Assembly: GCF_042242105.1 (NCBI RefSeq) | Contig: NC_092032.1 | Coordinates: 7,048,415 to 7,112,414 of the forward strand | Length of the DNA stretch: 64,000 nt | From: Pempheris klunzingeri | Lineage: Eukaryota > Chordata > Actinopteri > Acropomatiformes > Pempheridae | Reading direction: 5' to 3' | Shown: piece after piece, positions 3,889 through 61,135 of the stretch | How the letters are laid out: every line of letters starts with the position of its first letter | How positions within the stretch are numbered: position 1 is the first letter of the stretch | The notes under the pieces: model-generated | Seen by the model: only the letters and a program-made list of their open reading frames with translations | Databases searched by the model: none | Told to the model about the DNA's origin: nothing | Position numbers and translations under genes: made by a program

Positions 3889-5529
3889 GAGCATAAGAAT
3901 GGTTCCAAACCTTCTTCACATGGCAGCTCCATTATATGTCATTATGTCATGACTGACAGCAAACACTGACTTATCAGAGATTGTTTTGGTGCTTCTAACA
4001 GTAAATGGACCAATCAGCTTCTCCTCTTACAGCCCAAATCTAGTTTCCTCTGAAATCTCCGAGTAAACAGATCCTTAGACGGTTGATTCTCACTGCCAAT
4101 GATGTCATTAAAATCCTATATGTTTTTTTTCATATTGGCCACCTGACCTGAAGTAGAACAGTGGATACCCAATTAGATTGTGAAAGAACAGTAACTGCAT
4201 ATCATATTGACTGTCCCATTGTGACTTTGAGTTCGAAGGGCTTATTTTCCAGGAAACAAGCCTAATCTGATAGTACTGATATTCAAACCTTGATCGCCAT
4301 CATCAACCTTGATGCATCAGATGAAAGCATAGCGGCATCTATTACAGAGTGACATACTGTAGTCTGCGTGGGTGTCAGTGTTACTGGTACAGTCTAATTT
4401 TGACAGCAGGTCTGCGGCCTCGGTAGGTGAGTGTCTACCTCACTGTGTGTTGTCACTGAGCCAGACATCCAGATTCAGTAAGGCGAATATTAATCTGGCC
4501 GTGGCTCCGGCTGTCCTGTTATTGAAGCAGATGGTATCTGACAAACAGGAGCCACATGGCCACAGCTCTCTGTCTCTCTATCAAAAATTAAAAAGCAAAA
4601 AAACAAACCAAAATCAGGAGATTTTCTTCCCTTGATTGCCTTCGTTCCTTCATATTACCAGACAAGTCACACAAACAGCTTATTTACTTATATCCTCAAT
4701 AAAAAGGTATTGTAATAAAATACTTGGTTATTTCTACATGTTGTTAATCCTGTGTGATAAATCCACTTCTCTGATCAGGATGGACCATAACAAAGCCTCA
4801 TCACCACTTAAGCAAGCTTTGTCTCCTGTGTACCTACATCACCTATAGAGGGCACATTGAAGAGTTCTGTGTACATAACGGTTCAGTGTTGGCCAACATT
4901 GACTCCAAGTCACTGTAAGTAACTTCCACAGCAGAGTTGAGTACAAGAGTCAAAGAAAGTCGGGGTGTTTGTCATTTTCGCTCACTGTATGACTTCTATG
5001 CCACCAAGTTTGGTCCCAATCGATGGACACCAAACTCCGGCTAATTCTTTGGCAATTGAGCGTTTCCTCATTCACTGTCAAAAATACTCACGTCACAAAG
5101 CAGCAATGAAAAGCTGCAGACAGTGACAAAGATCATGTTTTTTCTTCGGCATGTATTTCACACACAAGCACGGACTTAAAGGAATAAAATTCCAACTAAT
5201 ATAATTTGCTGAGTTCTTATTTGTAACGTTCTCCCGCTACCAAAACATACTGTGGGGGCGGTGGCTAGCGGTTTAACCAAGATTTTAAAAAGTTACAATT
5301 TGCTTAAAACCAATGGTCAATTTGTGGATTTTCTCATGCCGAATTTCATATGAAGCTATTTCCGTTCAGAATAAGCCAGAGTCATGTATTGATAGGTATT
5401 CTGTTTTTGTCGTGAAGCACGGAAACTGTAAATTAGCATAATTCTTACGAAGTCTGGTTGTACCCTGTCACCAACGACTTGTAGTTTGGCGAGCGAGCGG
5501 GGAAAGTGGTGCCTACTGCCGTGTCTTAC

Positions 5530-5736
5530 CTGTGACATTTGCGGTCGGAGGTTGATTTCCTTTAGGTTGATGGTCTGGGATCGCAGGTTGTTGAGCAGAT
5601 GGCACAGGAGGACTCCATCCCGGAGGGTTTGGGCCAAGTCAAATACCTGTGCAGACTCCCATGTAACCCGGTGGTTCGCTGGAAGCACCTTGCAGTTAAT
5701 TAACCACAGCGCGCATTGCCTCCAATACTCCATCAT
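5530..5736 (-). CDS. vav3: Vav3 guanine nucleotide exchange factor, first coding exon
   Basis: This exon encodes 69 residues, the first half of the calponin-homology domain of a Vav-family Rho/Rac exchange factor, which signals downstream of antigen and growth-factor receptors. Marks include [35 protein letters not shown] and INLRPQMSQ. The reading [11 protein letters not shown] and [13 protein letters not shown] fits VAV3 better than VAV1 or VAV2. The exon ends at a clean donor (CAG|GTAAGA, minus strand) in phase 0. Two ATGs stand side by side (5736 and 5733). The second has a purine at -3 and G at +4 and aligns with the usual MEPW/MEQW start, so it may be the real one. The remaining exons (acidic, DH, PH, C1, SH3-SH2-SH3) lie left of the window. 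The choice between teleost paralogues vav3a and vav3b is not possible here. Confidence 0.93.
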
Positions 5737-5967
5737 TATTCTGACTTCGGCCGGGCGAGCTTTGAGAAAAATGTGTTGTTATATGAGCAAGTGAAAGTGC
5801 TGACGGCTCGGCGGTCTTAAATCGTGTCCATGTTCTATCCGCCAACTGTAAAAGCCGATGAAAACGGAACTGTAGCGGAGGGCTGGTGGGGATGCAGGGG
5901 GCTGCTCCACGGATGACAGTCCGGCGTACTGAGCTGAGGCTGTGGATGGAGCGCACCCTGCACTGCA

Positions 5968-12345: not shown

Positions 12346-14845
12346 ATGGCCCTGACTTTGGCAGACAGAGCCATTGGGGCCGTTATTGGGGCAGCAGTGG
12401 CAGATGCAGCCGGTAAGATAAACTGTGTGACACTGATGCTGGGACTGAGATACTTACAACAACAGAGCTTTCCATCTAACAAACTAAATCTGCTTCCTTC
12501 AGTTCCCATATCCCAGTAATTCATAGGCTGTTGCCTGTTTTGAGCTTCCACTGTTTCATGTTATGCACTTGTTTGATTTTAAGTGTCACAATTCTCCACT
12601 ATTTGCAATTGAATTTCTTTAGGGTGTTTCTCTAGGGTGCTTGTTAGGTGTTATACAATATGAACAGTGCTTTCTTGAGTGTTGCATGGAGGCATTATCA
12701 GGAGCATTATCTATCAGCAACATGTGCACATGTTGATAAAGTGCATGGGAGGTTCCCTAACTTGTATAAGTCATGATGACTTCACACTTAATGTCATGAA
12801 AGCTCAGTTTCTGCAACAGCTGCACTGATACACCGAAAATTGTAATTTATTTTCACTACAACATCATTGTTAACGCACTGTGTAATGATGTGGGACAGTA
12901 ACTAACACGTGATTCATGTTTAGATTCTGCATCATTCAACATGTATTTCCCTTTCCATGACATCTATTATCGACAGACTGTATATACAGGAGGTCAGGTC
13001 ATACCCAAAAACAAAACTATTGAATGTTCCACTATTTTTCTCCCTCTTTTTGTGTGTGTGTTCCCCACCCATACAGCCCAGCCCATGCACTGGATCTACA
13101 ATCCAGACAGGCTCAAAGAAGTCCTCTCCGATCTGGAGCCCTGTCCTGAGTTTCGGCCTCAGTCAGCGAACCCTTTCTACCGCAGGACGACTGGCGAGCA
13201 GACCTGCTATGGAGACCAGGCATACGTCCTGCTGGAGTCACTGAGCCAGTGTGGAGGTGGGCCCGCTGAACCGTATCCATAACAGACAGCAACTAGTAGG
13301 ATATGTGTCATATGTTAACATGACACTCTCAGTGCCTGCTCACATGTTAAAGCACTGTTCAATCATTAGAAAAGTTACCCTGTTCAAGATTGTGATTACT
13401 GATTATACAATTATCACTACATTTCCCATAAATACAGTCATTTCCTATGTCGCATAATGAGGAATTTAAAGGTCCCCCAAATTTGAAGATTTACCTTTTG
13501 ACTTTACTAGGTTGTATTGACTTCCTGGAGTCTCTACTGGTTAATATGACAAGATTCTCAGCCAAGAAATATCTCAAAACATAAATACACTTGTGTAGCA
13601 TTTAAACATACAAGATTAATGTGTTAATTTGTGATGTTTGGAGGTGCTGGCAGACACATTTTGTTACTTTTTGACCTCGTTAGCTGTTTCCAGTTTTCAT
13701 GCCAAGCCCAGGAAAAAGGTCTCCTGGCTGTAACTTCATATTTAACAGACTGACATGAGACCAGTACCAATCTTCTCATCTAACTCTTGACACAAAAGTG
13801 AACAAGCTCTTCATGCTAAGCTAAGTCTATAAGTGAATTTCCCAGAATGCTGAACTTTCGCACCACCTTTAAGAGATCATTATTTTGCATGACGTAAAGT
13901 TTATACAAGATGATGTCACATAAATGTGCTTGAAACAAATGGCATGCATTGCTCCTCAGATCACAGAGAAACGTAAAAATGATTGTTTTCTAAAAATCGT
14001 GTCAGCAGACGTAAATGTTGAAGACTTGACGAAGCGCATCTACAAGTTCTTTGGCTCAGGAACAGTGTACGACCTGCCTCTCAATGATCCCTACAGGAAG
14101 AAAGGAGGTACTGTACCTGTCCAGCTTTTATGTAACTGTGCATCTCGCCAAGCAACATGTCAGTTTTATTATGTCCATATGTGTTAATCATCAGCTAAAC
14201 TCTAACTCTAAAAGGATGTGAGAGGTTCTGTTTCTGTCTGATAATACCGTGCATATCGTTTTTCCTCCTTGCTGATGGGGAACTCCCTTTCCATGAAAAT
14301 ATTCCATACAGCCAGACTTCCCTGTTTTCTGTTATTTGATACTTTTTTACTGTCAGAATATCGTATAAATATAGTGCTACTGTAAGTCACAGCACATGGC
14401 GCCACTGGGAATGGTAAACAGCAGACAGTTTTATGACCTAGAATAATATAACAAGAGCTGTGTCATCGTCATGGCCAGCGATAGCAATCATGACAAAGCA
14501 GACACAGAAAAGAGCTCCACCTACAGAAACAAACTGCATCAACAGAAAGTTCAAGGAAATGTCTCTAAAACTCTGTTGCATGGTTTGTCGTTTAGTCCTA
14601 CTTCTCTGATTCTGTTTTCACCATAGGCAATGAGGAAGAAGCTGTCAAATAAAAATTTTCCAATGCAATGTAGCCGTTTGTTACATTTGTTAGGTCCCAA
14701 AGCCGTCCTCCCCATTGATGGCCCGTGGAGAAACGGGAGCCTGAAAGCTTTCATCAGAAATGTGGATGCCGACAAAGAAGAAACTGGTAAGGATCACAGA
14801 TTATAAGTGCATGAAACCCTCCCCAGACTTTTTTAGTTTTTGTAA

Positions 14846-14882
<37 letters not shown>

Positions 14883-17800
14883 TTTTAAGGCTGCGATGTG
14901 GACTGCCAGATGGACGGTGTCACTAAGCTGGCTCCGGTGGTGGCCATGTTTGCTGGCCGACCTGAGATGCTGGAAAAAGTGGAGAAAGCCATACGGGTGA
15001 CTCAGAACAATGACATGTGTGTGGCTGTGACGCTGGCTGCAGCAAGGTAAGAAATGCAGGCGTTCTAAAGAACCTGATAAACTTTTGGTCCAGCACAGTG
15101 GTCATTAGGATGTTTTTAAAGGAGTGAAGAAAGGGGCAGTGCTGAACCTTTGTTTGTCTTTCTAACTTTGTTAGGTTTTTGGAGCATTTCATTCTGAACG
15201 GTCCAGATCCCAATGCTCTGGATGCAGTTCTAGCTCAGCTGAATGACCCGAAGAGACAGAACCCTCAGGAGCTGGATCGGGCTGTCATTGGTAAGGCTAC
15301 CAGGACATGTGTCTTCAAAGGTTTATTTCTAATTTAATAGTATATTATGACAAAATACACGTTTTTCTTTCTTGCTGAGAGTTACACGAGAAGACCTCTA
15401 TAATAACTATCTGTTAAATATGAAGCTGTGTCTGGGGTTGATTAGCGTAGCTTAGCATAAAGACTGGATGCAGAGGGAAACCTACTAGCACTCCTAAATC
15501 TGGTCTCAGAACCAGACGGTACTAGGACCAGTTTTATGGTGATTATGGTGTAGTTGGCACCAAGACTTTCTTTTCTTGGTCATTTTAGCATAACTTTACA
15601 AACGATATCTACATGTGAATGCAGATAAATGGAAATAAAGCCCAGTAAAAAACATTGGGTACTGAGATTACATTTTGGTCAATGTGTGGACCATGACTGG
15701 TCAGTACAACTTGGACTACGAATGGACCACAAAAAGAAACCAGAAGGCTTAAGATACCACAATCTTGTCCCTTGCCTACAGATCCTGCGTCCATATGCAG
15801 GTATCTGTTTATAGAGATAACCATGAACCCAAAAGCTGTTGTTTTACACCTCAGCTTTTACATGGATTAAACAAGCAAGATATAAGGTGTTAATTAGTGA
15901 GGTATAGATAACAGAGTCAGGAAAGCTGTTTCCCTTTGCTGTAACTGGGTCTGTAATTGAGCTAATCAGCGCTGGCTCTGGTTTCATGTTTAATCGGCAG
16001 GTGCTATCAACCATCTCATCAAACTCGCCACAAGGAAACAAATAAGTGTATTTTCCAAAATGTTGAACTAAATGGTACTAAAAGTTCAAACTAAAACTAA
16101 AAGCTAAAACTGACTCCAGGCTCCGGCTCCAGACTGAGAGGTGTTATTCTCCTCATTTAACCGTGTGAAGTTATGTATGTATGATTCCTGGAATGTGGAT
16201 TCATTTATTTACTAGTAGTAATGTGAGAACACCTGCAGCTGGTAGCAACCTTTACAGTGTATGTGCCACTGTATCCCATCATCCTTCCCTAAAACAAGCA
16301 GGCAAAATACAACACAAAAACATGCAGGTCTTATGGGAACTGTAGTGAGAAATGCAAGAAACTCAAAATGCTGCGTGCAGGAACACGACCATCTTTAAGG
16401 AAATCATAGCGTTTGCCTTTCTAAATCAAAGAATAATGTTACAAGATATTTAATGTGTGTTATGTGAGTAATCAGCCACATTAAGCCAGCTCCAGTGTCT
16501 AAATGTTGTATATTTTCTCTCTCTTCCTGTATCTCTGCTGAAGCGCATATCCACCAGGTGAAGGACAACCTAGCCAAGACATCCCAACAGCTCGTACCTG
16601 CTGTGTTCACAAACACATGAGGTAAGCCAGTGGATGGCAGCAGGATTCAGGTCTGTTGACTTGGCACAGCTTGCAATACCCTTCCTGTCAGTATATCCGT
16701 TAGTAGGTCCTCCAGCCTTTGATCTGTTGACTTATGGTCTCCCTCCTCCTTCCTTTTCATTTCCCCCTACCCGCTGAGTGGAGTGTCTCAGGTTTTACTG
16801 GGCTAAAAGGTTAATCTACATGTGAAGTGTTCTGCTGGCGATATCCACTCAAGTGCCAACTTGAACTGTAAAATTAATGTGCAAAAGTAAAACAAATTCT
16901 GGTGTTTTTCGGGGCACAGTGACGAACGTATGACATTTATTGGCAGTGTGGGAACACCTAAAAAGTCTGGATCATTTATATTTAACATTTAACAGATCAG
17001 CAATCAAGCTCCTACTAAATCTGTGTTTGTGTCTAGCCCTGCCTGGTGCGTTCCAGGGAGCGCTTCATGGAGTCCTGAAGCTGAAGCAGCTGGATGAAGC
17101 AGTCAGGGACACCATGCGCTGCGGGGGATGCACCGCCAGCCGAGCCTCCTTCATTGGAGCCTGTTTTGGGGCACAGGTACTGAAGGAATGTGGCTCTAGG
17201 ACACAAACAGCAGTCATTAGACACCGACATTGTTTTGGTGGGAATCAGGAGGAGTCTCCTGGCTGCATTTTTAAAGAGCATCATTCATTTAAGAAGTTTT
17301 CTTGTTAAACTTAGTGTCTATTCCTAGACACTGATTTGAGGAAGAGGTGTTTTGATTTTGTATTGGGCAATGCTGTGGATTAGAAGCCCCCAAGTTACTG
17401 TGGATTTATTCATTTAGAGCATACAGGGTATCAATAAAATACGTCCTATTGCATGGAAGTTCAAGGGAGACAAATGATTAGAAAATACAGGGTTCATAAT
17501 TTTGTGTTTAAAGGAGACACAGAAACAAATTACACGGTCAGTTTTACTGTAAGAACCTTTTTCATAATTACAGGGTACAATATCAATATTACAAGGCAGG
17601 AACAGTGAGGTAACCATCTTAACAATGAAATTATATTATATTATATTATATTATATTATATTATATTATATCATATCATATCATATCATATCATATCATA
17701 TCATATCATATCATATCATATCATATCATATCATATCATATCATATCACATCATATTATATTATATTATATTATCATTTATTAACTTTTTCAAATGGAGT

Positions 17801-18281
17801 ACCTATTGTTATAAATATAGTTTTTCTATATTAAGTGTAAAAAGCCATAATTTGACTCCTTTTCATAGCAAAGCAGAGATGAAAATGCACATAGGTCAAG
17901 TCTGCAGGTAACCTTTCTGTACCTTATAAATACAACACTGTACATTGTTCTCATACTGTATCAGTAAAATATTACAGGAACAACATTGCAAAGTGTGATG
18001 CTCACCCACATTTTACACTCTGCAGCATTTACTGTATCAGACAGACAGCAGCACTTCAAACGCTTCCTTTTGCATCTTGGTGTTGTCTGTTCGATGAGCT
18101 TGACAGTGAGCTCAGATATTGTGAAAGCTCTGTGCTTCCTGTGATGCTTTCAGCCGTCGTCTTGATGTGTTTTCAGACCGGTGTCCAGGGAATCCCCGAG
18201 TCCTGGAGGACGAGGACACTCAGATACCCTCTGCTGTTGGAGCTTGCCGAAAATATGGTCCAAAAAAGTCAGCGAATGTAG
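12346..18281 (+). CDS. selenoj: Selenoprotein J (J1-crystallin / ADP-ribosylglycohydrolase-like)
   Basis: There are nine coding exons: 12346-12412, 13077-13256, 14006-14107, 14694-14786, 14890-15046, 15175-15290, 16544-16621, 17037-17176, 18177-18281. All have GT-AG borders, the phases join, and the total is 346 codons (345 residues plus TAG) if one internal TGA is read through. The protein is of the J1-crystallin branch of the ADP-ribosylglycohydrolase fold. It opens with RAIGAVIGAAVADAAAQP and MHWIYN, then has YGDQAYVLLESL, GPWRNGS, MDGVTKLAPVVAMFAGRP, RVTQNND, and LPGAFQGALHGVL near the end. Residue 264 is TGA, where Cys stands in relatives, as expected for fish SelJ. The start ATG (12346) has an in-frame stop just upstream. 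An untranslated first exon further left is possible. The biochemical activity of SelJ is not settled. A structural or lens role and glycohydrolase activity have both been considered for the family. Confidence 0.92.
13505..13875 (+). repeat. teleost interspersed repeat, copy A (selenoj intron 2)
   Basis: Landmarks of a common teleost repeat are visible: 'gacttcctggagtctct', 'gctgtttccagttttcatgc', 'cttcatatttaacagactga', 'tcttctcatctaactct', 'tttcccagaatgctgaact'. I cannot name the family. It lies wholly between selenoj exons 2 and 3. Confidence 0.6.
14848..14881 (+). repeat. selenoj: (TG)17 tract abutting the exon 5 acceptor
   Basis: Seventeen perfect TG units are followed only by GTTTTAAG before selenoj exon 5 begins at 14890. 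The tract takes the place of most of the usual polypyrimidine stretch. Confidence 0.95.
15340..15480 (-). repeat. teleost interspersed repeat, copy B1 (selenoj intron 6)
   Basis: The segment contains 'ctgttaaatatgaagct' and 'tagcgtagcttagcataaag', the reverse complement of landmarks in copy A (13505-13875). It is therefore in the opposite orientation to copy A. Confidence 0.5.
15840..16070 (+). repeat. teleost interspersed repeat, copy B2 (selenoj intron 6)
   Basis: The segment runs 'ttttacatggattaaacaag', 'aaggtgttaattagtgagg', 'ccatctcatcaaactcg', 'gtattttccaaaatgttgaa'. It belongs to the same family as copies A and B1 and has copy A's orientation, so B1 and B2 face each other inside one intron. 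Confidence 0.5.
16618..16620 (+). other. selenoj: in-frame TGA, probable selenocysteine codon
   Basis: The frame of selenoj exon 7 reads VPAVFTNT-TGA-G and then splices after one base into exon 8, which continues A-LPGAFQGALHGVL. Conserved family sequence therefore runs on directly after the TGA. In J1-crystallin relatives this position is a Cys in a (N)C.LPG context. This is the classic sign of a Sec codon. The frame stays open on both sides, so decay is unlikely. Confidence 0.9.
17629..17775 (+). repeat. composite pentanucleotide array (ATATT)n-(ATATC)n-(ATATT)n
   Basis: About 29 five-base units lie in selenoj intron 8. The outer units are ATATT, and an inner block of about 19 units carries a T-to-C variant (ATATC). 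There is no non-repeat spacer, so it is a microsatellite and not a CRISPR array. Confidence 0.97.
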
Positions 18282-18565
18282 TTCAGCTTTGATTTTTGCA
18301 CAAAATGCAATTGTTTCATCACCTATCAAGTATTCATGGAGTGTGAATGAGACTTTCTCAAGTCACAGATGTGCTTTGACATGACAATCCATGACAGTCA
18401 CATTCTAAAGTCTCGGACTGAATGAAACTCGAAACCATTTGTTCTGTCAAAGCTGCATCATGTGAGAAAATGAAAGTCTGTGTAACGTATTTACATTGTG
18501 TTGAGGACATGAAAAACATTCATCCTCAGCAGCCTCAAATAAAGAACCTTTATGTTAACACATCT
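18282..18565 (+). other. selenoj: selenoj 3' UTR with poly(A) signal
   Basis: Sequence after the TAG stop runs to an AATAAA at 18538-18543. A SECIS element is required here (or just downstream, if a later poly(A) site is used) for Sec insertion. I tested the visible ATGA motifs (18347, 18379, 18391, 18422, 18470) for a stem with an apical AA and a distal GA and found none that fits well. A small hairpin (GAGG..ATGAA / TTCAT CCTC, about 18503-18527) is present but does not match the SECIS core. Confidence 0.6.
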
Positions 18566-20456: not shown

Positions 20457-23400
20457 ATGGATTTTAATGTTAAGCGGTTAGCCGCAGACGCCGGTACTTT
20501 CCTTAGCCGTGCGGTACAAGTAAGTTTGACCGTCTAGTTCGTGTTTGTCGTTTGTCGCTAATCGACGTTAGCTGCTAGCTCAACCAGTCAGGTAGCGTTA
20601 GCTCGTTTGCTAAACAGTTATTGTGTAGCTAAGCACCCGGCTATCACCTGGGAGAAAACTTTCTCTCCTGCAAAGTACTGACATATAAGTGGTTTTAAAC
20701 AGTGGCGGAGACCTCTCAGACTCTGTTATAGTAAACAGTTCAGCATAACCATCAAAGCAGGCCTCAGAAACCATTAGAGCTATCAACATTAGCCCGGCAG
20801 ATAACGTTCATTTAGTATGCTAATTGATGCTAACGGTTGTAAACAGCTTCTCTCAAACCCGTCCAACGTTTGTGTATCACCTTTAAGCCAAGTTTATGTT
20901 TATGTGCACACTCTAACCAGTGATTTTCTTTTAAGTTTACAGAAGAAAAATTTGGCCAGGCTGAGAAGACAGAGTTGGATGCCCATTTGGAGAACCTCTT
21001 GGTCAGAGCTGAGACCACCAAGCAATGGACGGAAAGGATAATGAAGCAGACAGAAGTGTTACTACAGCCCAACCCGAGTAAGGCCACACCTTTGACTCTG
21101 GACTGACAAACAAAATGCTGACATACTGGACCCCTTTTTCAGGGCAGTGCAGGGCAGGTACCCACCCTATGTTGCCCCCTGTATGGAGGATGTCACCACA
21201 CATATGTGTTACAGTTGAACCCAATATTTGGACATCAACAACTGCTGTAACATCAAATTACAGTTACTGACAGTTGATGTACTGTTTCTGGACTGAAGAT
21301 GACTCAGTGATTCAGGAAATGCCTGCGTCATTTAGGAGATGTACATGCCAGTAAGAAATGTCAGAAATGTTTAACGTCTTTAAGATGGTGGTTGGCGTAC
21401 ATCTGCAGGTAGGGTGTCGGTGAAGTCTGTAAGCTCAGCTGTGCATCTGCCTCAGCTCACACCACGACGCCATATAGCTGCATCACAAACAAGGACAGAG
21501 CAGCTGCTGGTTACAGTCTTGTGTAACACTCTTGGGTATGTTAAACTGCATTTGTTCTACTTATGCTATGTTCACGTGCAGCATACCACAGTTATGCCGA
21601 CTGTGATTGCCAGTGTTCGATCATCTGATGTGATCATATGAAACAGTTCTGATATTTTTCTGGCTATGGTCATTTTCATGGAAGCTTCTATTTTCCAAAT
21701 GGAAAGCAGGCTGTTTGGACGCACTGTCATAAAGTCAGTGCCTGCGTTTGGCTCCCTCACTGTAGTCTTATGACTTTGTAATTGAGTTTTCTTGTTGTGA
21801 TCTGCAGATGTCCGACTAGAGGAATTTGTGTATGAGAAACTGGAGAAAAAAGCCCCTACACGGATGAACAACCATGAGCTGCTGGGCCAGTCCATGATCG
21901 AGTCAGGAAATGAATTTGGTCCTGGAACTGCCTATGGTGAGTGATGCACTGAGCTGCCTGACGTACTGGGACCTCAACGAATATTCAACCCCGGCTTAAT
22001 TCTGGTAAACAATGGCTGTGCTTCAGATAAGTTTTATTCGTGGAGTTTATGTAGCTGATTCTTGTCACACAGTCCTCAAGTAAAGGCTTTTTGACAGTTT
22101 GTGGGGATTTGAGCGCCATCAGTCGCCATCTTTTATGGTCAATATCCACTTTGTATGTAGCCACACACCTCTCTGTCTTCTCCAGACTGAAGGCTAAAGC
22201 TTTCTGTGAGGCTGTGGCGCCACACTGTACAGTCCTCCCGTCCAGTGTTGTATTGGGAGTAAAGTTGTGTTTGTGCTGCCGACCATTACAGGAAATGCTC
22301 TGATAAAATGTGGAGAGACGGAGAAACAGATTGGTGGAGCAGAGCGGGAGTTGATCCAAAGTGCAGCCATCAACTTCCTGACGCCTTTCAGGAACTTTCT
22401 TGAGGGCGACTTCAAAACCATCCTGGTGAGTCGGAGCGCTGCCCGAAGGTCTTAAATCACTTTCACTTCTCACTGACCTTTGAACTTTTATCTGGAACTT
22501 ACTTTGAATACTACTGGCTGTAAATTGAAGACGATATAGTTTTGATAACGGTCCCTAGCATTTTACAGCCTTGATACTCAGAAATCATATTGAACTCTGT
22601 CCAATCCCCATATTGGACACGCTACACTTTTTAAAAAAAATCCCCAATTCAGTTCAGTTTCAGGGTCTAACTGATGTGTAATTCTGTATTGCCAAATGTT
22701 TTTATATTTGTTTTATATTTTCAAAATGAAAGCTCTTCTATGGTGGACCATACGACACCTGACATAGTCGTCTTTATTTTACTGTGTGCGCCTGTTTGAT
22801 GCTAATGTAGCTTCCACCATTAGACCATTTATCAAATGCATTCAAACATCCTGCACATGGAACATGTGGTTGTGCTTAAGAATCCTAATATTACTGCTCA
22901 TCCTCCATCTGCTGTAAAGTGAGTGATGACAGCAAATGCAAACCACTGAGCTCATCTGCAAGAAAACTGTGACAGTGTGAGATGCACAGAGCGGAGAATT
23001 CTAGTTTTTGAGGGTTTTACTGTGTTATGTGATTTGTGTCCAGAAAGAACGGAAGCTACTGCAGGTCAAACGTTTGGATTTGGATGCAGCCAAAACCAGG
23101 CTAAAGAAAGCCAGGATGGCCGATGCCAGAGCCGCAGTAAGTACACACATGCACACACACATACACACACACCATCATCTGCAGTGATTTTTTTGCATCT
23201 GGATGTCTTTGGGTTATTTTAATGCTGATTAATGAACAGTTTTAGTGCTTTTTCTGAAATCATTAGCCAAATTTCCTTTCCCAGGAAGAAAAGCTGTTGG
23301 GGCATATCCTACTGTCCCTCAGCCACACCAGTCATGACTGACACGCCAAATTGCACAACATGAAGCTGACCATTTTATCTCCTGTGACTTGCTTGCAGTC

Positions 23401-25078
23401 ACATGAGCAGCTATGGAAAGTTTAGACTTCCCTTTTTCTGGATAGTTTTTTTCGTGCCATGATGTTATTTTGACATCTGGATTGATTTTCTGTTTCTTTG
23501 GCATACCAGGGCTCCACGCTCACATTTATTTTTAAGGGCACCAGGGGCACACATGAAAGCGAAGGGGCACAGTTATAATTTTTCAGAAATAACACAAATG
23601 CTTCTTCCCTTTTTTTTAAAAAATTATTTAATATTAAGCATACAGTATTCATAAAATTCTGGGGCGTGACTAGGATATCACTCAAGAATTTTGAAGCATA
23701 AGTTACTGGGAACCTAACAAATGAAAGGGATGCAATGTACCTCAGGCATGCAAACAGCATCTCTTTTCAAACAGCATGGAGTTTTGTCAAAATGAATATT
23801 CACACATCCAGCTATCTCAGATATAGGTGTGTCAAAGTATCACTTCAGTTTTGAGAAAACAGATCTCACACTGTTGTTGCTCAGCATCATAATTTATTGA
23901 TCATAATAATGTTTCAGTCCCTCTGGACCTTTGTCAAGAGTATCTTAATCAGTTCTTACAGCAGTGATCTTAAAGAATAGTGCTCTGCCTGTTCTGTGTG
24001 CGCAGGTGTGGGGCAGTTATTCTCCTGTCGGAGTGTGTCTCAGTAACTGACTGTGGCATCCATCCACTACAGAGTCAAATCTGACAATCCAAACACCAAC
24101 AGGTCTTTACAGGCTTTTGAACTTAGGTTTGGGTCTTTATTCCAGGTGTTATAATTCAAGGAGTCAAGCATGTAGAAGCATCATACTTGTGTTGAAAACA
24201 TAGCATTAAGTTGGGGATTGAGGCTTTTAAACATCTTGAATACAGTTGAGGTCGTGCTGACGTGCAGGTTTTCATTCATGTCTCTCGTCCCAAAAGGGAT
24301 CTCGGATGTAATTCTAGCTGTAAAAGTTACAGATAGTCTGTCATGGCCCTCCCCGGCCAGACTGCCTCCTAGTTAACAATGTCTGAAGATGATATCTCTT
24401 ATGACTTCAGCACTGAGCCAAGACTTAGCTCGTTTATGACCAAATCCTTTCGGAAAAACATGTCCCCATCCTCCCACATCAAGAGGGGAACACTGATTGG
24501 TGTGCCAGTAAAAAAAAAAAAAAAAAAAGATAGATTAGACAAGTACTCAATTAAGCTGCTGATATTGTTCAACTACCAGAGGCAATATCACAAATCAGTG
24601 CGATGTAATGTCAGTCACAGTGGACTTTAAAACAATAGACAGTATCCCAGCAACACTGCTTGGCTGCAGTCCTCAGATCTAGAGTAAATTATTGGCCTTT
24701 GAGCACAATTTTCCAAAAATACAGGAAGAAACAATCTAGCTGAAACACAGTGCACTTAATTTTATTCTTCTTGGCTACTCAGAGCCAAGTTATCCCTGTA
24801 GCTTGTCTCATTAAATAGGCTTTTCCAAATAGCAGGGTTGTCTGGTGGTTATTGGCAGTCTAATGGTGTGTTTACTCTTTCCAAACGTGTGTCCTGTCAA
24901 CAATATCTGCAGAAACGTGTTCTCTCAGGAAAGAGTGGAGCATCACCCAAACACAGGAGTAGATTTCTGCACCAGTTCTGCACTGAGGCGCTTTGGTCAT
25001 GATGAGAAATGTTTATACGCTACATCGTCACTGTTCCTCCACCTTCTACCGAGTGTGCTTTTCTTAAAGCATGCCTCA

Positions 25079-25119
<41 letters not shown>

Positions 25120-28100
25120 ACACAGAGTGTAAGGATGTGTTGTATTGGCTGCGGCCGTGCAGCAGCTGTAGCTCTAACTACTGTGTCACTGTTTTCAAAA
25201 CGCAAAGCAGCAGATGTGAGCAGAGGAAGTGACAGAGGTGAGTGGAATGTTGGAGCTATCTTTTGAATTAAAAACACGCGCGCACACGCACACACCCACA
25301 CCAAACCCCTTGATAGCTGTGTCAACAGCTGCCGTCTATCCCTTTCTCTATCTCTTCCATGACACATACTGTGGGCACCTCATGGAAAACCTTGAACCCT
25401 TGTAGACGATTCGCACAAGAACCAAACACAGTAAATACCCTCCCTTCCTCCACACCTCTCTCTGTGGCTCTAATGTAAGCTGTAGACAGTGGAGCCATTG
25501 TCCCTGTCCGTCTAAGTTCCAGACCATATGTTTATTGGACTTTTTAGTAAGTCTCAACATGCCATTGTTGCAGCAGGTCTCTTATTGAATCTTTTGGCTC
25601 AATATGAGGAAAAGGAACCATTTCCCTTAGGACAGAAACATCATGTTCAGTGTGTGTCGCCATCTTTCCTTGATGTTTCTTTGCTGCCATGTCATGTTAA
25701 ATGCACACACACAGACGCTGGCATCATTTCTCTCGGCTGACTGAACCGTTCCTCTGTTCATTTCTATTTTTCAATACAGTTTTTGAACTAACTGGTGGTG
25801 TGGTGCTGTGTATGTTTAAATGAACTGGATTATATTCTTCCAAAGAGTTTTTAAAAATTTGCAAAGTATTTTATGTTTTTCCAGATGACAACCAGCTTTT
25901 GCCCATGGGACTCAAACACTGTATTGAAACACCAATAATATTGAATGTCAGAGGTGGCAGAACCCACTGGCCTCATTCTCAAAAAGAGGCCAATATCAGC
26001 AAACCCATTTGTCAGTCTGAAACATGCTCATTCACTCTTATGTGTATGTCCTCCGGTCTGTAAAGCACTGTGATTCCATGTATCCATAATAATCATGGAC
26101 TTGGGGGGTGTGATGATATATAAACTAGGTTTTTGTTCATTTTCAGGCAGAGCAGGAGTTGAGGATGACCCAGAGTGAGTTTGACCGTCAGGCAGAGATC
26201 ACCCGACTGCTGCTAGAGGGCGTCAGCAGCACCCACGTATGTCGCCAGGCTCAGCCCGGCTTCCACTCACAATCACCATTCAGTCATTAAACAAGTAGCA
26301 ACGAGGGATGTTTTTCTAATGGTTCTTGGCACCGGAAAAAGAATCTGGATCCTAGACTTCACCTAATGCAGTTCAAAATCAGATTTATTATTTTGCCACA
26401 TTGAACTATTCCTTCCAGCCTGAAACCAGTTTTGTTGTGTAAAATGGGCTGAGCTACCATTTAAGATAACAAAAGGTTGATTAGCGAAACATGTCTGTGT
26501 GGTTTGGCATCTTTTGGATTCTCATTTTGGAAAGCTTGAGTCAAACATGAAACCCATATAAAACCAGTGACACTTTGAGTGTGGCTCTCTCACTCCTCTC
26601 ATTATGCACTGCTAGGCACACCACCTACGCTGCTTGAATGACTTTGTGGAGGCCCAGACGACGTACTACGCACAGTGTTACCAGTACATGGTGGATCTCC
26701 AAAAGCAGCTGGGCAGGTGAAATACCACCCTGAGGTCACCTTCCATTCTCTCTGTCACCAACATCTCCTTTGGGTCCTAACTCTGGCATCACATTGCATG
26801 AGCTGGCATTGTTCCAGCAGATAACAGAATAGATTAATATGCTCTCACTGCAGGGAGCAGAAAGTCATCACAATCCTCGCTGTTATTTCCTGTTTCCTTT
26901 TAAAATACAAAAATAACTCTCCTGTCTTTAGAAATCCTTCCTGTAAACAAAAGTATGTCATCTGTTCTCGCCATCAGTCAGTGTGATAAAAGCAAAGCAG
27001 TTCAAGTTCATGTAGGTTTCATAGTTTTCAGCTTTCCGTAGAAAGAGGAAAGTGACTAAATGTGGCTTCAGTGTACTCAGGGATGAGGTCACAGAGAAGT
27101 CAACTTTAGCTGATATTTAAAGAGACAGAGAACACAGAATTGGACTGGTAAATACTGACTGCATCATTGTACTGAAGAACATTTAAGCACTCATCTCTGC
27201 TCCGGCGCTCACTGATCTCCCGTCTTCCCGCCAGTTTCCCCTCATCATTCTCCAACAACAACCAATCGTCTGTGTCAGGCGGGGCGAGCATCTCGGTGCC
27301 CACCATCCCAGTGTCCGCCTCCCTGCCCAGCGTGTCTGCGGGCCACGGCAGCTCCACGGCATCGGGCGGCTTCAGTGAATTGCGTAGCTCCAACAGCAGC
27401 CGCAAAGCCCGGGTGCTTTACGACTACGACGCTGCCAGCAGCAGCGAGCTTTCCCTGCTGGCTGATGAGGTGAGTGTGGAACAATTGTCTGTCTATCATA
27501 GCATCATTGTGGGGAACAACTAGAGGAGAAAAATTGAGGAAAGTTTAAGGAGGATTCCACTACTCGTTTATTTCTTTATTGCAGTTATTTTTTAATTAAC
27601 CTTTTAACCATCAAAATCAGGAAGCCTAGTCTAAAATTAACATGTTTGTGCTAACCGCATCATGGCCTGAAGCTCCAATGGAGCAGTTTCTGCTCAGCAG
27701 CCTCTGTTCAGTGACACATAAGCCACTCCCTTTCCTGGAAAACCACTGAACTGTCCATTACAAGCCTGTGGCTGACTAACAATGAACCAGCATTACCTCA
27801 CCGCTCTAATACTCACATTCACAAAAGTTTTCCAGTCAGCCCTTGCATTTCATGGGCCAGCTGTGTGGCCTGAACTGCCACTGATAATAACAGGATTTAT
27901 AACCAAGCATTTCATAAACGTGCTGTCTTTGATGAGCGGAAAACGGTCTGCAAAGCTGAAGAATGCTGCTAGAAGGACTGACGTGTAAAGTTTTGCTATG
28001 TCGGTAATGTAGCCATAGCCTGATTATAAGCAGCTATCACTGTGACATCACCTGTTAGTTTGTGGACTGCCGATTTGAAGCCTTTCAGCATTGTCAAAGT

Positions 28101-28127
28101 CATCATCTTGATTGTGGAGCCAAAAGC

Positions 28128-28159
<32 letters not shown>

Positions 28160-28668
28160 CCCTTGCCTTTGGTTGGTTAGGATAAAGCATGACCTAAATC
28201 TGATTGGTTAGTCACAAGGTTGTTCCGCCCTAAAACATAGCCTGCTTTAATTCACAAAATGGTCATCAGGCTGTGTTGAAAAAGACTTGAAACAATTGAG
28301 ACTATAAACTCATTAGGGAAATGTTTACTGAGGTAATAAATCAAGTAAGTGTCATTGACTTCCATACAATCAGATTTCTTTCTCCTGCCAGCGGAGTCAC
28401 ACTACTCTGGCCATCAGAAAGAATACAGGTTTTAGGCTTCACTTGTTCAGACTCAGAAGCTACATCCAATGTCAGCTTGGCAATGATAATGGATGATACA
28501 TTGTACCCCCGTAAACAGAAATTAAGGCTTAACATAACAAAGACCGTATCCATCCTCCAGGTGATCACAGTCAGCAGCGTCCCAGGCATGGATTCAGACT
28601 GGCTGATGGGTGAGCGAGGCAACCAGAAGGGCAAAGTGCCAATCACTTACCTGGAGCTGCTCAACTGA
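20457..28668 (+). CDS. sh3glb1: Endophilin B1 (SH3 domain GRB2-like, Bif-1)
   Basis: There are nine exons: 20457-20519, 20936-21077, 21808-21936, 22292-22425, 23044-23136, 26147-26236, 26616-26716, 27235-27469, 28561-28668. The phases close to 364 aa (human SH3GLB1 is 365). It is a membrane-bending protein of autophagy, endosome and mitochondrial outer-membrane dynamics, and a Bax and UVRAG partner in mammals. The N-BAR domain spans residues 1 to about 250 (MDFNVKRLAADAGTFLSRAV, ELDAHLENLL, QTEVLLQPNP, LTPFRNFLEGDFKT, SEFDRQAEITRLLLEG). A Ser/Gly/Asn-rich linker follows, and the SH3 domain is about 308-364 (KARVLYDYDA, MDSDWLMGERG, GKVPITYLELLN). The absence of the SH3GLB2 insertion and the LKKA/EQELR junction point to B1, not B2. 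Intron 5 is 3 kb, where mammals place alternative brain exons; I saw none. The start ATG has a good context (GCCATGG). Confidence 0.96.
25079..25114 (+). repeat. (CA)n microsatellite in sh3glb1 intron 5
   Basis: About 17 CA units. A second looser CA/CG-rich run lies at about 25274-25303. Confidence 0.95.
28130..28159 (+). repeat. poly-T tract in sh3glb1 intron 8
   Basis: About 30 consecutive T bases. No SINE body was recognised next to it. Confidence 0.9.
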
Positions 28669-33528: not shown

Positions 33529-36500
33529 TCAGTAAGATGTAGGCTTCAAACACTTCTTTTTGATAGATTGTTGTAGCATTTTGGGCTTGAGGAGAACAAT
33601 AATCAAAATGCCCACAAAAGAAATACAGGCAGGTACAATAAGTAGAACATACCAAAATATAGATTCCCCGCCTTCCTCCCAACACAAAAATGAGTGGAAG
33701 TGTTCCACTCTGCATGTCGTTTGGAAGAGATCCTCACATATGATGTCTGACTGTTTGACCATATTGATTGTCTTTGTTGTTTCAAATGTCCTGAACCATT
33801 CAGTTTGGCAGCAGTTGAACGGATTTCCTGTGAGGAAAACTGTGCGCAGTTTCGGGGCTAATGCATTAGCCTGACCTACGGGAATAGTCGACAGTCTGTT
33901 GTCCCTCAAATCTAGCACTTTCAGGTCAAGACTTAGAAGTGAAGGGGGGAGATGGGCAAGAGAGTTCCTTGAAATGTTTAAAGACCTCAGATTTTGGAAA
34001 TGGGAGAAGTCAAAGTCTTGTATGTGAGTGTGTCCTAAACCTAAATGCTGTAACGTTCTGCTAAGACTTTGAATTGATTCTCGTACAATGAGGCCAGGGT
34101 TGTCGGAGAGTTCCAAGTGTGTTAGAGACAACCCAGAAAACGCAGACGACGGAATTCTTTCAAGGTTGCATCCCTTAAGGTAAAGCTGCCTTAAGGATGT
34201 AACGTTCTTCCAATCAACACAAGATGAGACTGTGTCTGTGCTGGTCTCCACTTCCTCAGGAAGGCAAATGTCAATGTTGTTATAACTGAGGTCTGCTGAC
34301 CTGAGGCTTGCCAATGAGGAAAACAATCCAGAGGGCAACCACTCGAGATCATTCAGGCTCAGGTTGAGGTATGTCAGATTGCCAAGGGTGGAAAGTGCAC
34401 CTTCATCTGCCACAATCTGTTTCAACCTGTTGTTGCTTAAGTCCAATTCATACAAGCTGCCAGAGAACTGTTCTAACGTTAGATTTAAGGTTTCCAGACA
34501 GTTTGTGCACATCTGAAGTCTGGACAGGGCAGGCATTTTCTGGATGAATCCCTGAGGGAAGTACTCCACCTGGTTTCTTCTTAGATCCAAAATCTCTATA
34601 GAGGAGATGTCACCGTGAAGGCTCTCGTCCCACAGCTTAGCCGTCACATTGCCCGCGTACTTCTTCATATTGTAGAAGTCAACAGTTGCAGTCAAGTTCT
34701 GTGATGTGGCGTTGTCTGCCAAGTGTGTGTAAAACCTAACATTGTTGTGGGATAGGTAAAGATTCTGCAAGTGGCTCTGGTTGGGCAAGAAAGGAAAGAA
34801 GAGCAGTTTATTATTTGATAGATCGAGTGTCTCCAGCTGGAAAGTGTCATTAAGGTCTTGTCTGGAGATGAACCACTCGATGAAGTTGTGGCTGGCGTTG
34901 AGGACCGTCAGCTGGGTCATGTGGAAGTCCGTCAGGCACGGCAGGTAGTTGAAGGCCAAGTTGAGCCGCTGGAGTTTGGGATTGCTGTCAAAGGCGGCAT
35001 CAATCTCGAAAATGATGTTCCTCTGCAGGTCGAGTTCTTTGAGTTGGTGAAGATCCTTGAACGAGGTTTCATCCAATCTCTGCAAGAGGTTTCCGGAAAG
35101 ATTGAGATACTCAAGGGATGTATGATTTTGGAGAAGAATGGCAACCATTTCGTCATCAAGCTTGTTCTCAGAGAGATCCAGAGCTCTGAGCCTGGGTATC
35201 ATCTTTAATGCATGGCTGGTTTCTTGGTAGCCAATATGAATATTGTTATTTGCTAAATTGAGGCTGTGTAACGACTTCAAGTCTTTAAAAGTGTTTGATT
35301 GTAATTTTGCCAAACTGTTACATGCTAAACTCAGGGTGTTTAACGAGGGGTAGCGTAGGAGAGAGTTGTCCTGTAGTGTTTGAATGTAATTGTAGTTGAG
35401 CTGAAGCTCCTCTATGTTGTATGGCAGTCCAGCAGGCACAAAGGTGAGCTTGGCATTGTTGCAGAGGGCTGATCTTTGTATCTGCAGAAAAAAAACAGAG
35501 AAATGTTTGGGCTTATTTTTTGCACTTTTATCCTTCAAAAAGCATGTTGATCTTGTCTGCTAATTATTTTTCTAGGTACAGGGGGAAAAAAACACAAGCC
35601 TGAATTTACTCCTTTGTGGGTTTATTTCAGTCAGCTTCCTTTTTTATTTATTTTTTATATCACTACTTCAGAATTTTTATATATTAACACGTTAACATTA
35701 GTTTTTTAGCTCTAGGGATGGCAATGATGTTCTTTCAGTCAGTTAGTCCACACTTTGGTCCAGAGTGAAATGGGAGCATACAGTATCTATGTTCCCAGGA
35801 TTCTATGGGTCCTTTGAACACCAGATCAATATCATTACCCTAACCCTGATTCTAGGATGTAGACTATGTGACAAGCAATAATAGGAAAGCTTTTGGAAAG
35901 TCAGATCAGAAAATGTTCAGTGTAGCTGGTCTAATTGTCTACCAAGATAGAAAATTGCATATTTAGGTGATTCAAACATAGATTGGTATACACCTATACA
36001 CCTTTATATGCTCTGATTTCCACAAGGTGTCCAGCAACGAAGAAGCATAAGCTACTTGGAGACAAAAACAAATTGAAGTGTAAAGAGGACACGTAGAAGA
36101 AGAATCATTTTTAATCAATAATCACATTGTTCTTTTAAACGACCAGGAAGCCAGACATAAAGTCTGCCATGTGTGTTATATTAAAGGAATGCAGACCTGA
36201 AGAACATAAGACCATTTTAGCATAGATTAGATGCCGTTAAATAACAGTAATAATCAGGTTCCTGGCAGATGGACTGAAATGACTCCTGATACATTTCCTG
36301 TAGCACAAACACGAGGTCAAAATTTCAGCTTGCCTTTTCATCAGCTTCAGTTGTGCTTTTCTTTAGTGCAAATGTTAGTATGCCAATAGGCTATGCTAAG
36401 ATGGTGAACCTGGTGAATATTATCTGTTGTCACTAGTGAGCATTTCAGCATGTTAATGTTAGCATTTAGCCTAAGGCACAGCTGTATTAAAGCTAGCGCG

Positions 36501-45829: not shown

Positions 45830-47805
45830 CTAGCCGTCCAGAGGTTTTCCCAGGTACACCATGGTGACTTCGGTGTTGCCGTACACTGCAGAGACAGCTG
45901 GGAACAGGCAGGCTTTGGGCAGTCCACGAAACGCTACTCCAAGAAACTCAAAACCCCTCTCGAAGGCTAACGTCTTGTCATCCATGTCTAGAATCACTCG
46001 TATTCTCTCCCCAATCTGTGGACACAAATACACATTGCTGGATTACAAAACTACCAAATATTAAATACAATCTTTGGAGACAACAGCAGAATTATCTCCA
46101 AAACTGTTGCAGTTAACAACTGGGTGATTAATTCCACAGGATATGAATAATATGCAGATTTGGCTCCAGATCCTACCTGATATTTTGGTGCATTATTGCA
46201 CTGTGGAAAGTTTCCATTGACCTCCCCATTATGGAGCAGGTTGTTATCGACCAGGTTCCAGCCCCAGCTCTGGTCATCACTGCCCAGCAGGGCGACGTAG
46301 CCCTGGCACTGCATGGACGCCCGCTTCGTGGCGATGCCTATCACCGCCACCGTGCCAAGGGGGCCTTCCCACCAGATCTCCCAGGCGTGCCTCCCTTCAG
46401 AGAAGCCAATCTTGCCACGTGCACCATCTGTGCTCTGGGCAATAGGGTTGCGGTGCAGGGTGAAGCCGTTTTTCTTCACGTAAACATTGCGGGAGCAGTC
46501 GTGGGAGCTCAGAGCATGTTGAAAGGCCTTGAGCTGTAGAGAATGATAAGATATGCACAACTGCTATAGTGACCAGACATTTAGGTAAGAAAGATCCTGT
46601 TGAAAAAATGTAAAAAAAAAAGAACAGAATTCATGACCTTAAGTGATCTCTCCAAAATTCTTCAAACAATGGTGTAAAAATGTCAAATTAGCATGTGTTG
46701 GGTGCTACATTTAAAAGCTCTCTTGTTGTTTTTGTTGGGAAACACATCCTTCTATATATAACATATATGCTTGCATAAACAAAGTGATACATGGCCATGG
46801 ACCTTGGCTCTTCCACCGTGCAAAGCTATTATAATTTGAGATAAATTAATCAATATCTTCCAATGATAGACACAAAAGAGATGTATAGCGGAAGCAAAAT
46901 TTTTAACTAAATTCAACTTAGAAGTGTGACATTTTCAAGCGCAGCGTGCGGTATACAACTGGATCAGTGGATCTCAAAATAAGGCCTGGGTGCTGAGGAA
47001 CTTCCACAGGACCCCATGGAAAATTTATCAACTACTTTATTTACTTCATGTTATCAATTTTCCTAAATTAGGTTTCACTTTGACTGGGCTTATTTCCCTG
47101 CACATGGTGCACACATCTATGCAATGATAAACATTAACAGTAACCTCACTATTGGCCCCCTGTAATATATGTGCACGGTCTGACTCAAAATAACCTCACA
47201 CCAAACCCCCTTTAAGAATCTACCTATTTAATTAGGGTTCTCAGCAAACACACACATTCATTTTGTATATTATTTTGAATGTGTTCGTAAAAGACTGGGT
47301 ATGAATCAGTGAGGTCATCTGGCAGGCAGTGTGGATTCATCCTGCGTTCAATTGACCACATTTTCAGTCACATTCCGTGAAGGTGTCTGCAAAACAAAGG
47401 TAGCACTAAACAGGCAGATTTTTGAATGGAGTCTGGTCCTCCCAAACCGAAAGAACAGCGGTATATTGGTAAACCTACTTTCCCCTTGTAGGTGGGCAGA
47501 TTGCACAGGATGTCAGACCGCATAGCTTCATCGCTCAAAGTCCGGTTGGAGAGGCTGCGCCACACCTCGCTGTTTTCATCCGCCAGAATATTGTTCCAGT
47601 GCCAGCAGACCAACGAGCATTGTATCAAGTCGGACAATTCTAAATAGGAGAAAATATGCTCCAGGACCCGAGCTGGCAACCTCCCGGCCACCCCTCCGCC
47701 TCCTCCGGCTGCAGCAGCGTAGGGAGAGCCGGCGGAGCTGCAACTGGCTGCCGCTGCTGCGCCCAGACTGGAGGAGCCTCCTCCTCCACCGGCCGCTCCA
47801 GACAT
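45830..47805 (-). CDS. fbxo45: F-box/SPRY domain-containing protein 1 (FBXO45)
   Basis: There are three exons on the minus strand: 47479-47805, 46177-46533, 45830-46015. All junctions are phase 0, and the product is 289 aa (human FBXO45 286). It is the substrate adaptor of an atypical PHR (MYCBP2)-SKP1 ubiquitin ligase needed for synapse formation and neuronal migration. Residues 1-41 are a low-complexity Gly/Ala/Ser stretch. The F-box is about 42-88 ([27 protein letters not shown]). The SPRY domain runs from about 113 to the end ([69 protein letters not shown]). The open frame extends upstream to a GTG codon at 47853, but eukaryotic initiation should use the ATG at 47805 (A at -3). Adjacency to nrros in the same order and strand matches human 3q29. 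Confidence 0.96.
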
Positions 47806-48540
47806 TATACCCCTGCTCTTTACCGACGACACCAGCCGACCGAAGAGGCTCACCTTACACCGCAGAATGATTCCTAATATAAGTTAAACAGCAACATTGT
47901 AACCATGAAATCTCATTTAGGTCGCACAAAAATCACAACAGTATGGACCCCACTCTTCCCAGTTCAATGGCTGAACAGAACGATGCGTCAAGGTCCTTAA
48001 AGAGCAAGTAGACTTATTGTGTTTGCTGTCAAAGACACATGGAAACTGATTTGTAGAGATGCTGATTATATTTGACTTTGGAGAAAATGCGCTAAATCCA
48101 GCGTTGATAAGTTTTTAGGTAAAGGAAAGCCCATGTAATAATCAAATAGATTTTATTTCCTGCAAGGACCACAGCGCAGACACAATAATGAGCTCACAGG
48201 GAACTGCTACAGTGTTGCGGTGAGAGGATATTGGACGGTTTACTGTTGCAATGTCAAAATGCAGCGACTGTATGGGGGAAACATCGTCTTAAAGGAACTG
48301 TCCTAAATAACAATGTCATTTATTACTTATGAATAAATTTATCTGGCCTGTTTGGGCACTTTAGTTTGATTGATACTCGTCTTACAGGCTGCATGTATTG
48401 AGGAAAATAAAATTAAACGCTTTGGTGTGTGAATACAAAAAATACTCATTACAAGACGAATATTAGTTATTTGTCAAAGCGAAGTGTAATAGTCCGTGTT
48501 TGCGGACCACGTGACACTACCCGGAAGTGACGCGGAGTGC
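47806..48540. promoter_or_regulatory. bidirectional promoter, fbxo45 / fam168b
   Basis: About 700 bases separate the fbxo45 start codon (minus) from the likely fam168b first exon (plus). It holds an E-box CACGTGAC (USF/TFE type) at 48508-48515 and a composite CCGGAAGTGACGC (ETS plus CRE-like) at 48521-48533. No TATA box is evident. The CpG content is higher near both genes than in the middle. Confidence 0.6.
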
Positions 48541-50140: not shown

Positions 50141-51314
50141 ATGAATCCAGTGTACAGCCCTGCATCAACAGGGGTCCCCTTCACCAATACTAAGGGCATT
50201 GGCTACCCAGGTAACCTAATGTTGATGTGTAATGGTTTAAGTACGTATTCTGGTAACACGTGACTACCCCCAAATAAAGAAAAGTAAAAAATACTGGGTT
50301 TTTTTATTCCGTTTTGGTAGCTGGAATTCCTGTTGGCTATGCAGCAGCTGCTCCAGCTTACACTACGGGTGTCTACGCAGGAGCTAACACAGCCTTCACT
50401 AGTGGTAAGAATAAAGACCTGCTGGATATTTCTCCATCCACACCCACTGACTGTACAGTTAATCACCACCATCAGCATTACTTAGTGTCCTCCTCCCACC
50501 CAGGCTATGCTCCAGGAACTCCTTTCAAAATGTCCTGCTCTCCCAACACGGGGACTGTCCCACCATACTCCTCCTCACCCAACCCTTACTCTGCTGCTGT
50601 TTACCCCGTCAGGAGCACCTACCCCCAACAGAACCCCTATGCACAGGTCAGTGCTTTTGTGTTGTTGACGGATGGCAGATTTTAACTCTTGGCTCTGGTA
50701 TTAAAGTGATCACAGATCAAACTTTGATTGCTTTACTAGGATTTGTCACATGTTTTGAGCTGTAACATTTTGTTTTGCTCTTCTGTGATCCAGGCGCTAA
50801 TACCTTCACAACAACAAGGCGCTTATTACACACAGCCGCTGTATGCTGCGCCACCTCATGTTATCCATCACACTACAGTGGTCCAGCCAAATGGGATGCC
50901 TGCGGCCATGTATGCCCCACCTATCCCCCCTGCCCGCCACAATGGCGTTGCCATGGGGATGGTTGCCGGCACCACCATGGCCATGTCAGCTGGTGAGCAT
51001 GACCTTCTGATTTATTATTTATGGTTTTCTATGTTTTGTAAAGGTACTAATTTGAAATGGAAAGAGTGCAAGACATGACCAGTTTGCTTTTGCAGCACAG
51101 TCTCAGTAAATCTGGGCCCCATTCTTTTCTATGGAAGCGGTTATTATATCATACACAGTTTCATATTTGTTCACCATTCTGGTGTCAACTGTGCTTCTCA
51201 GGAACTTTGTTGACAACTCCATCACCAGCTCCTGTTGCCCCCCACCAAGTTACGATGCCCACATATCGGACCCCCGGCACACCCAGCTACAGCTACGTGC
51301 CCCCACAGTGGTGA
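50141..51314 (+). CDS. fam168b: FAM168B (myelin-associated neurite-outgrowth inhibitor, MANI)
   Basis: There are five coding exons: 50141-50210 (exon begins 50119), 50321-50404, 50504-50646, 50794-50992, 51202-51314. They join in phase to 202 aa (human FAM168B 195). The protein is small, Pro/Tyr/Ala-rich and membrane-associated. In mammals it restrains neurite outgrowth and binds CDC27. Landmarks are [85 protein letters not shown] and the C-terminus YSYVPPQW. The AGIPVGY and [10 protein letters not shown] segments favour FAM168B over FAM168A. The extra length comes from ALIPSQQ at the start of the fourth coding exon, absent from the human protein. It could be skipped through a different acceptor, though none nearby is strong. 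Confidence 0.95.

Positions 51315-54919: not shown

Positions 54920-61135
<6,216 letters not shown>

Follow-up and report, generated by a model that had tools for sequence, protein, structure and literature searches.

The window, by which we mean the whole 64-kb stretch of DNA that was analysed, very likely carries an intact gene for selenoprotein J (SELENOJ) with nine coding exons, in which a TGA is read as selenocysteine (Sec) by means of a SECIS element in the 3' UTR. The coding part of this selenoprotein J-type gene occupies positions 12346–18281 of the plus strand and predicts a protein of 345 residues, with the putative Sec at residue 264. This reading draws on the coding frame, on the conservation of a protein domain on both sides of the TGA and on a hairpin downstream of the final stop codon.

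The gene model was rebuilt from the window. Its nine exons, all on the plus strand, lie at 12346–12412 (exon 1, 67 nt), 13077–13256 (exon 2, 180 nt), 14006–14107 (exon 3, 102 nt), 14694–14786 (exon 4, 93 nt), 14890–15046 (exon 5, 157 nt), 15175–15290 (exon 6, 116 nt), 16544–16621 (exon 7, 78 nt), 17037–17176 (exon 8, 140 nt) and 18177–18281 (exon 9, 105 nt), the last of which includes the final TAG stop at 18279–18281. GT/AG borders are seen in all eight introns, and the joined exons give 1038 nt, that is 345 residues plus the TAG, with phases that close. The only internal stop in this frame is the TGA at 16618–16620 (+), codon 264, which is located in exon 7, one base 5' of the donor. Across the nine exons there is no second stop, frameshift or damaged splice site, and stop codons interrupt both alternative frames of exons 8 and 9 once these are joined. 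The nine exons closing in phase around a single TGA, as described in the initial annotation, are thus borne out. Exon 1 starts at its first ATG. An in-frame TGA lies just upstream, so this ATG is the first methionine within that reading; the bases preceding it end in AG, which makes an additional 5' exon possible. A tblastn search of the window with the conceptual protein returned ten matches, corresponding to the nine exons and a chance-level match at 30477 (E 2.9). No tandem duplicate (SelJ2) or other second copy of the gene was found in the 64 kb by this search. Two of the introns contain simple repeats: a pentanucleotide array with the consensus ATATC (27.8 copies, 17633–17771) in intron 8, and a TG array (14848–14881) in intron 4, near the acceptor of exon 5.

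The conceptual protein as a whole matches the Pfam family PF03747 (ADP_ribosyl_GH) with an E-value of 1.2e-39 and 137.2 bits, the cut-off being 26.2, which places an ADP-ribosylglycohydrolase (J1-crystallin-like) domain, as expected of SELENOJ, in the product. When the 263 residues upstream of the TGA were searched alone, they matched profile positions 1–213 (E 6.8e-23), and the 81 residues downstream of it, also searched alone, matched profile positions 233–286 (E 4.6e-11). As the two parts match the profile separately and collinearly, the residues encoded downstream of the TGA are part of the same domain. Judged by these matches, the TGA interrupts one domain of which both halves are kept, the sequence that follows it is very probably coding, and the TGA stands in frame inside otherwise open, conserved coding sequence. 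A search of the protein against NCBIfam gave two weak matches, both far below the cut-offs.

In animals, a TGA codes for selenocysteine only when the mRNA carries a SECIS element. We found a SECIS-like hairpin at 18360–18460 (+), on the strand of the gene and about 100 nt past the final stop. It sits between the TAG and an AATAAA at 18538–18543 (+), the likely poly(A) signal. The SECIS core is opened by an AUGA (18391–18394), followed 12 nt later by AAA (18407–18409), with GA (18431–18432) on the opposite side and a long lower stem beneath. A short additional stem over the A's resembles the form-2 type of SECIS. The minimum-energy fold of 18360–18460 is SECIS-shaped and has an energy of −30.1 kcal/mol, compared with a mean of −19.06 (sd 3.23) for shuffled sequences, 1 of 200 of which folded as well. 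The initial annotation did not include this element, which is what gives the TGA its meaning.

The support from Rfam is below threshold. No family matched anywhere in the 64-kb window at the gathering thresholds. A permissive scan gave a match to SECIS_1 at 18383–18443 (+) with 24.1 bits, the gathering score being 35. When 4 kb were scanned, this match had the best E-value (0.19) of five; in the scan of all 64 kb its E-value was 3.1, and it was the sole SECIS match among the nine listed (up to E 10), although four matches to unrelated families, taken as chance, ranked above it by E-value. The remaining permissive matches (four of five in the 4-kb scan and eight of nine in the 64-kb scan) are likewise under their gathering scores and are all taken as chance matches.

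How often such a shape arises was assessed with a custom filter, composed when the fold of the candidate had already been seen. On the plus strand of the window, a single ATGA site out of 375 passes, and this is the hairpin at 18360–18460. On the minus strand 5 of 397 sites pass, and the one at 17068 (−26.8 kcal/mol) is as stable as the hairpin. Of 3730 sites in 640 kb of random sequence, 7 passed, a single one of these at −22 kcal/mol or lower. At this rate about 0.7 of the 375 sites would be expected to pass (0.1 when the energy limit is applied), so the single pass on the plus strand draws its significance from where it lies and not from the count. The interval between the stop codon and the AATAAA holds just six ATGA sites, for which about 0.01 passes are expected at the random rate. 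The shape of the hairpin by itself is no proof; its place and strand supply the weight. The element thus has the shape (core motifs and fold) and the place of a SECIS, but scores below the Rfam threshold.

Selenocysteine readthrough at the TGA (16618–16620) is well supported at the level of sequence, because the frame is intact, the domain is collinear on both sides and a SECIS-like element is present in the 3' UTR. The open frame, the two PF03747 halves and the hairpin therefore strengthen the earlier proposal that this TGA encodes Sec at residue 264. Only one of the printed alignments spans the Sec site, that with the relative MJ1187 discussed below, which is distant; the alignment is gapped there and shows no cysteine at the site. 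No homologue with cysteine at this position turned up in the collections searched (prokaryote contigs, plasmids, viral contigs and phages). We propose that the mRNA would consist of exons 1–9 with the SECIS hairpin in its 3' UTR, that a SECIS-binding protein and the Sec-tRNA machinery would lead the ribosome to insert selenocysteine at the UGA of exon 7, and that translation would then continue to the TAG at 18279–18281. The product would be a protein of the ADP-ribosylglycohydrolase family, presumably with loss of hydrolase activity.

The same observations bear on whether the gene might instead be decaying, with the TGA as a premature stop, or as a sequence error, in place of a sense codon of a homologue that has cysteine or another residue there and uses no selenium. 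The sub-threshold Rfam score speaks for such a gene. However, a decaying gene does not readily explain nine exons whose frame and splice sites are otherwise intact, nor a domain that continues past the TGA with an E-value of 4.6e-11, nor a SECIS-shaped hairpin at the expected place, and we consider it highly improbable. We rate slightly lower still the possibility that the TGA is a true stop and that the gene mainly yields either a truncated protein of 263 residues or a form lacking exon 7, whose symmetric 78 nt can be skipped to leave an open frame of 319 residues. Truncation would end the domain near profile position 213 of 287. It would also put the stop 141 nt upstream of the final exon–exon junction, where stops usually bring about nonsense-mediated decay. 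Neither truncation nor skipping accounts for the SECIS-like element.

Within the preferred selenoprotein reading, exon 7 deserves attention. It is 78 nt long and both its boundaries are in phase 1; skipping it therefore preserves the frame. Stops well before the last exon junction usually trigger nonsense-mediated decay. As the UGA, if taken as a stop, precedes the last junction by 141 nt, the mRNA should be open to this decay under selenium shortage; nonsense-mediated decay of selenoprotein mRNAs is discussed in PMC8881744. One could imagine exon 7 as a frame-neutral cassette under regulation, such that low selenium would lead to skipping, the UGA would be removed, a stable Sec-free SelJ of 319 residues would be made and the mRNA would escape decay. 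We regard this as a long shot. The symmetry of the exon also matters for annotation. It had been pointed out that gene callers would end the protein at the TGA or drop exons 8 and 9, and to these two failure modes a third has to be added, namely the skipping of exon 7 in favour of the open 319-residue frame.

The founding paper on SelJ is reportedly that of Castellano et al. in PNAS in 2005. Like members of this family, the gene in the window encodes an ADP-ribosylglycohydrolase domain and has one in-frame TGA towards the C-terminal end; its 3' UTR holds a SECIS-like element, and it lies in a vertebrate gene neighbourhood. The name selenoprotein J, which rests on the domain, the TGA, the SECIS and the literature, is very probably correct. 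As to distribution, the initial annotation had described SelJ as patchy and mainly found in ray-finned fish. PMC3316567 confines SelJ to fishes among vertebrates and describes a duplicate, SelJ2, in medaka and stickleback. The family as a whole is wider: a table of PMC3473315 has one SelJ member in a column headed Bf, which we read as amphioxus, and several members in algae are given in PMC7539508. In zebrafish, Selenoj has been measured by mass spectrometry, and in sbp2 mutants all detectable selenoproteins except Txnrd1 fell, according to PMC8881744; selenoj is also named in a zebrafish neuron cluster in PMC11489432.

Annotation of the family is known to be poor in places. PMC12822975 states that <1% of SELENOE, SELENOL and SELENOJ genes are well annotated in Ensembl, and that in RefSeq 77% of vertebrate selenoprotein genes are right, the fish-specific families being no worse. 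Both the SelJ family and the poor state of its annotation in sources other than RefSeq have hence been published, and the present gene illustrates a known kind well. It can serve as a clear model case for a class of genes misannotated by several sources. A full gene model with its SECIS helps to correct such records, and involves no new kind of biology.

To the family PF03747, which includes ARH1/ARH3, DraG and MJ1187, the protein is alike over the whole domain. Active ADP-ribosyl hydrolases bind metal through the acidic residues of the TDD and GGDxD motifs. The conceptual protein aligns with MJ1187 (PDB 1t5j) with an E-value of 9.5e-10, and differs from it in lacking these residues: the GGDTDS of MJ1187 is replaced by GGCTAS (i-Evalue of the stretch 1.4e-05), and TDD by TCY, the latter less surely as it falls in a weak stretch (i-Evalue 2.8). 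With GGCTA in place of GGDTD, and TCY in the weak stretch, the acidic metal ligands of the two motifs are not found. Because acidic residues are missing at the positions aligned with GGDTD, and less surely with TDD, the protein is probably not a metal-dependent (canonical) ADP-ribosyl hydrolase. A redox-active or a structural (crystallin-like) role appears more likely. Loss of the acidic residue of GGD is also seen in the trypanosome protein mt-SAF23 (6sga), which has GGPVCQRS in its place; residues 281–340 of the window's protein align with it, and this alignment stops short of the Sec position. The role of mt-SAF23 is in mitoribosome assembly. The J1-crystallins of jellyfish belong, as we assume, to the same superfamily as the protein described here. 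In the literature searched, no paper was found that deals with J1-crystallin together with a selenoprotein. A review table (PMC11591929) lists SelJ as expressed in the lens of the eye in some fish and suggests a structural role.

Relatives were also sought with the conceptual protein itself. The prokaryote contigs gave ten pattern-matched stretches, none of which was confirmed (0/10), and no relative was found in the plasmids, viral contigs or phages searched. A second search used a degenerate DNA pattern in which PGxFQ is followed, after a gap of fixed length, by GGDN; the first motif and the gap came from the window's protein, and GGDN was added to them. This pattern matched ten stretches in the prokaryote contigs and one in the viral contigs. 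When the protein was run against these eleven loci with tblastn, no match resulted; 0/11 encode a relative, and they are taken as chance occurrences.

The genes surrounding the selenoprotein J-type gene would fit a vertebrate, comprising vav3-like, lrrc33-like, BAR, F-box, SPRY and TCRP1/FAM168-like pieces. Taken with SelJ itself, this gene set suggests that the DNA very probably comes from a bony fish. On the strand opposite to the selenoprotein gene, a frame at 5356–5778 (−) holds a vav3-like first coding exon whose best PDB match is Vav-3 (E 1.5e-35); the remainder of this gene presumably lies further to the left. Downstream, at 20924–28668 (+), there is a BAR piece (E 7.8e-13) along with two SH3 pieces that fall below the Pfam cut-off, and by eye we take the region to resemble the endophilin B gene (sh3glb1). 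A long leucine-rich repeat exon at 33529–35559 (−) has LRRC33 as its best PDB match (E 4.3e-125) and is thus nrros-like. The lrrc33-like gene is adjoined by F-box and SPRY pieces at 45830–47883 (−), which by eye we presume to be fbxo45-like; of the two SPRY pieces, one is just under the cut-off.

The right-hand part of the window contains several further open frames. At 57264–60432 (+) there are several exon-like frames, perhaps of one gene; within it, the one frame searched, 57987–58376, matched nothing in Pfam or the PDB at E 0.01. Two frames at 55228–55673 (−) look like the last part of a reverse transcriptase of LINE type. Frames at 50278–51314 (+) appear fam168-like by eye, and the frame at 50740–51075 among them matches Pfam TCRP1 with an E-value of 2.2e-35.
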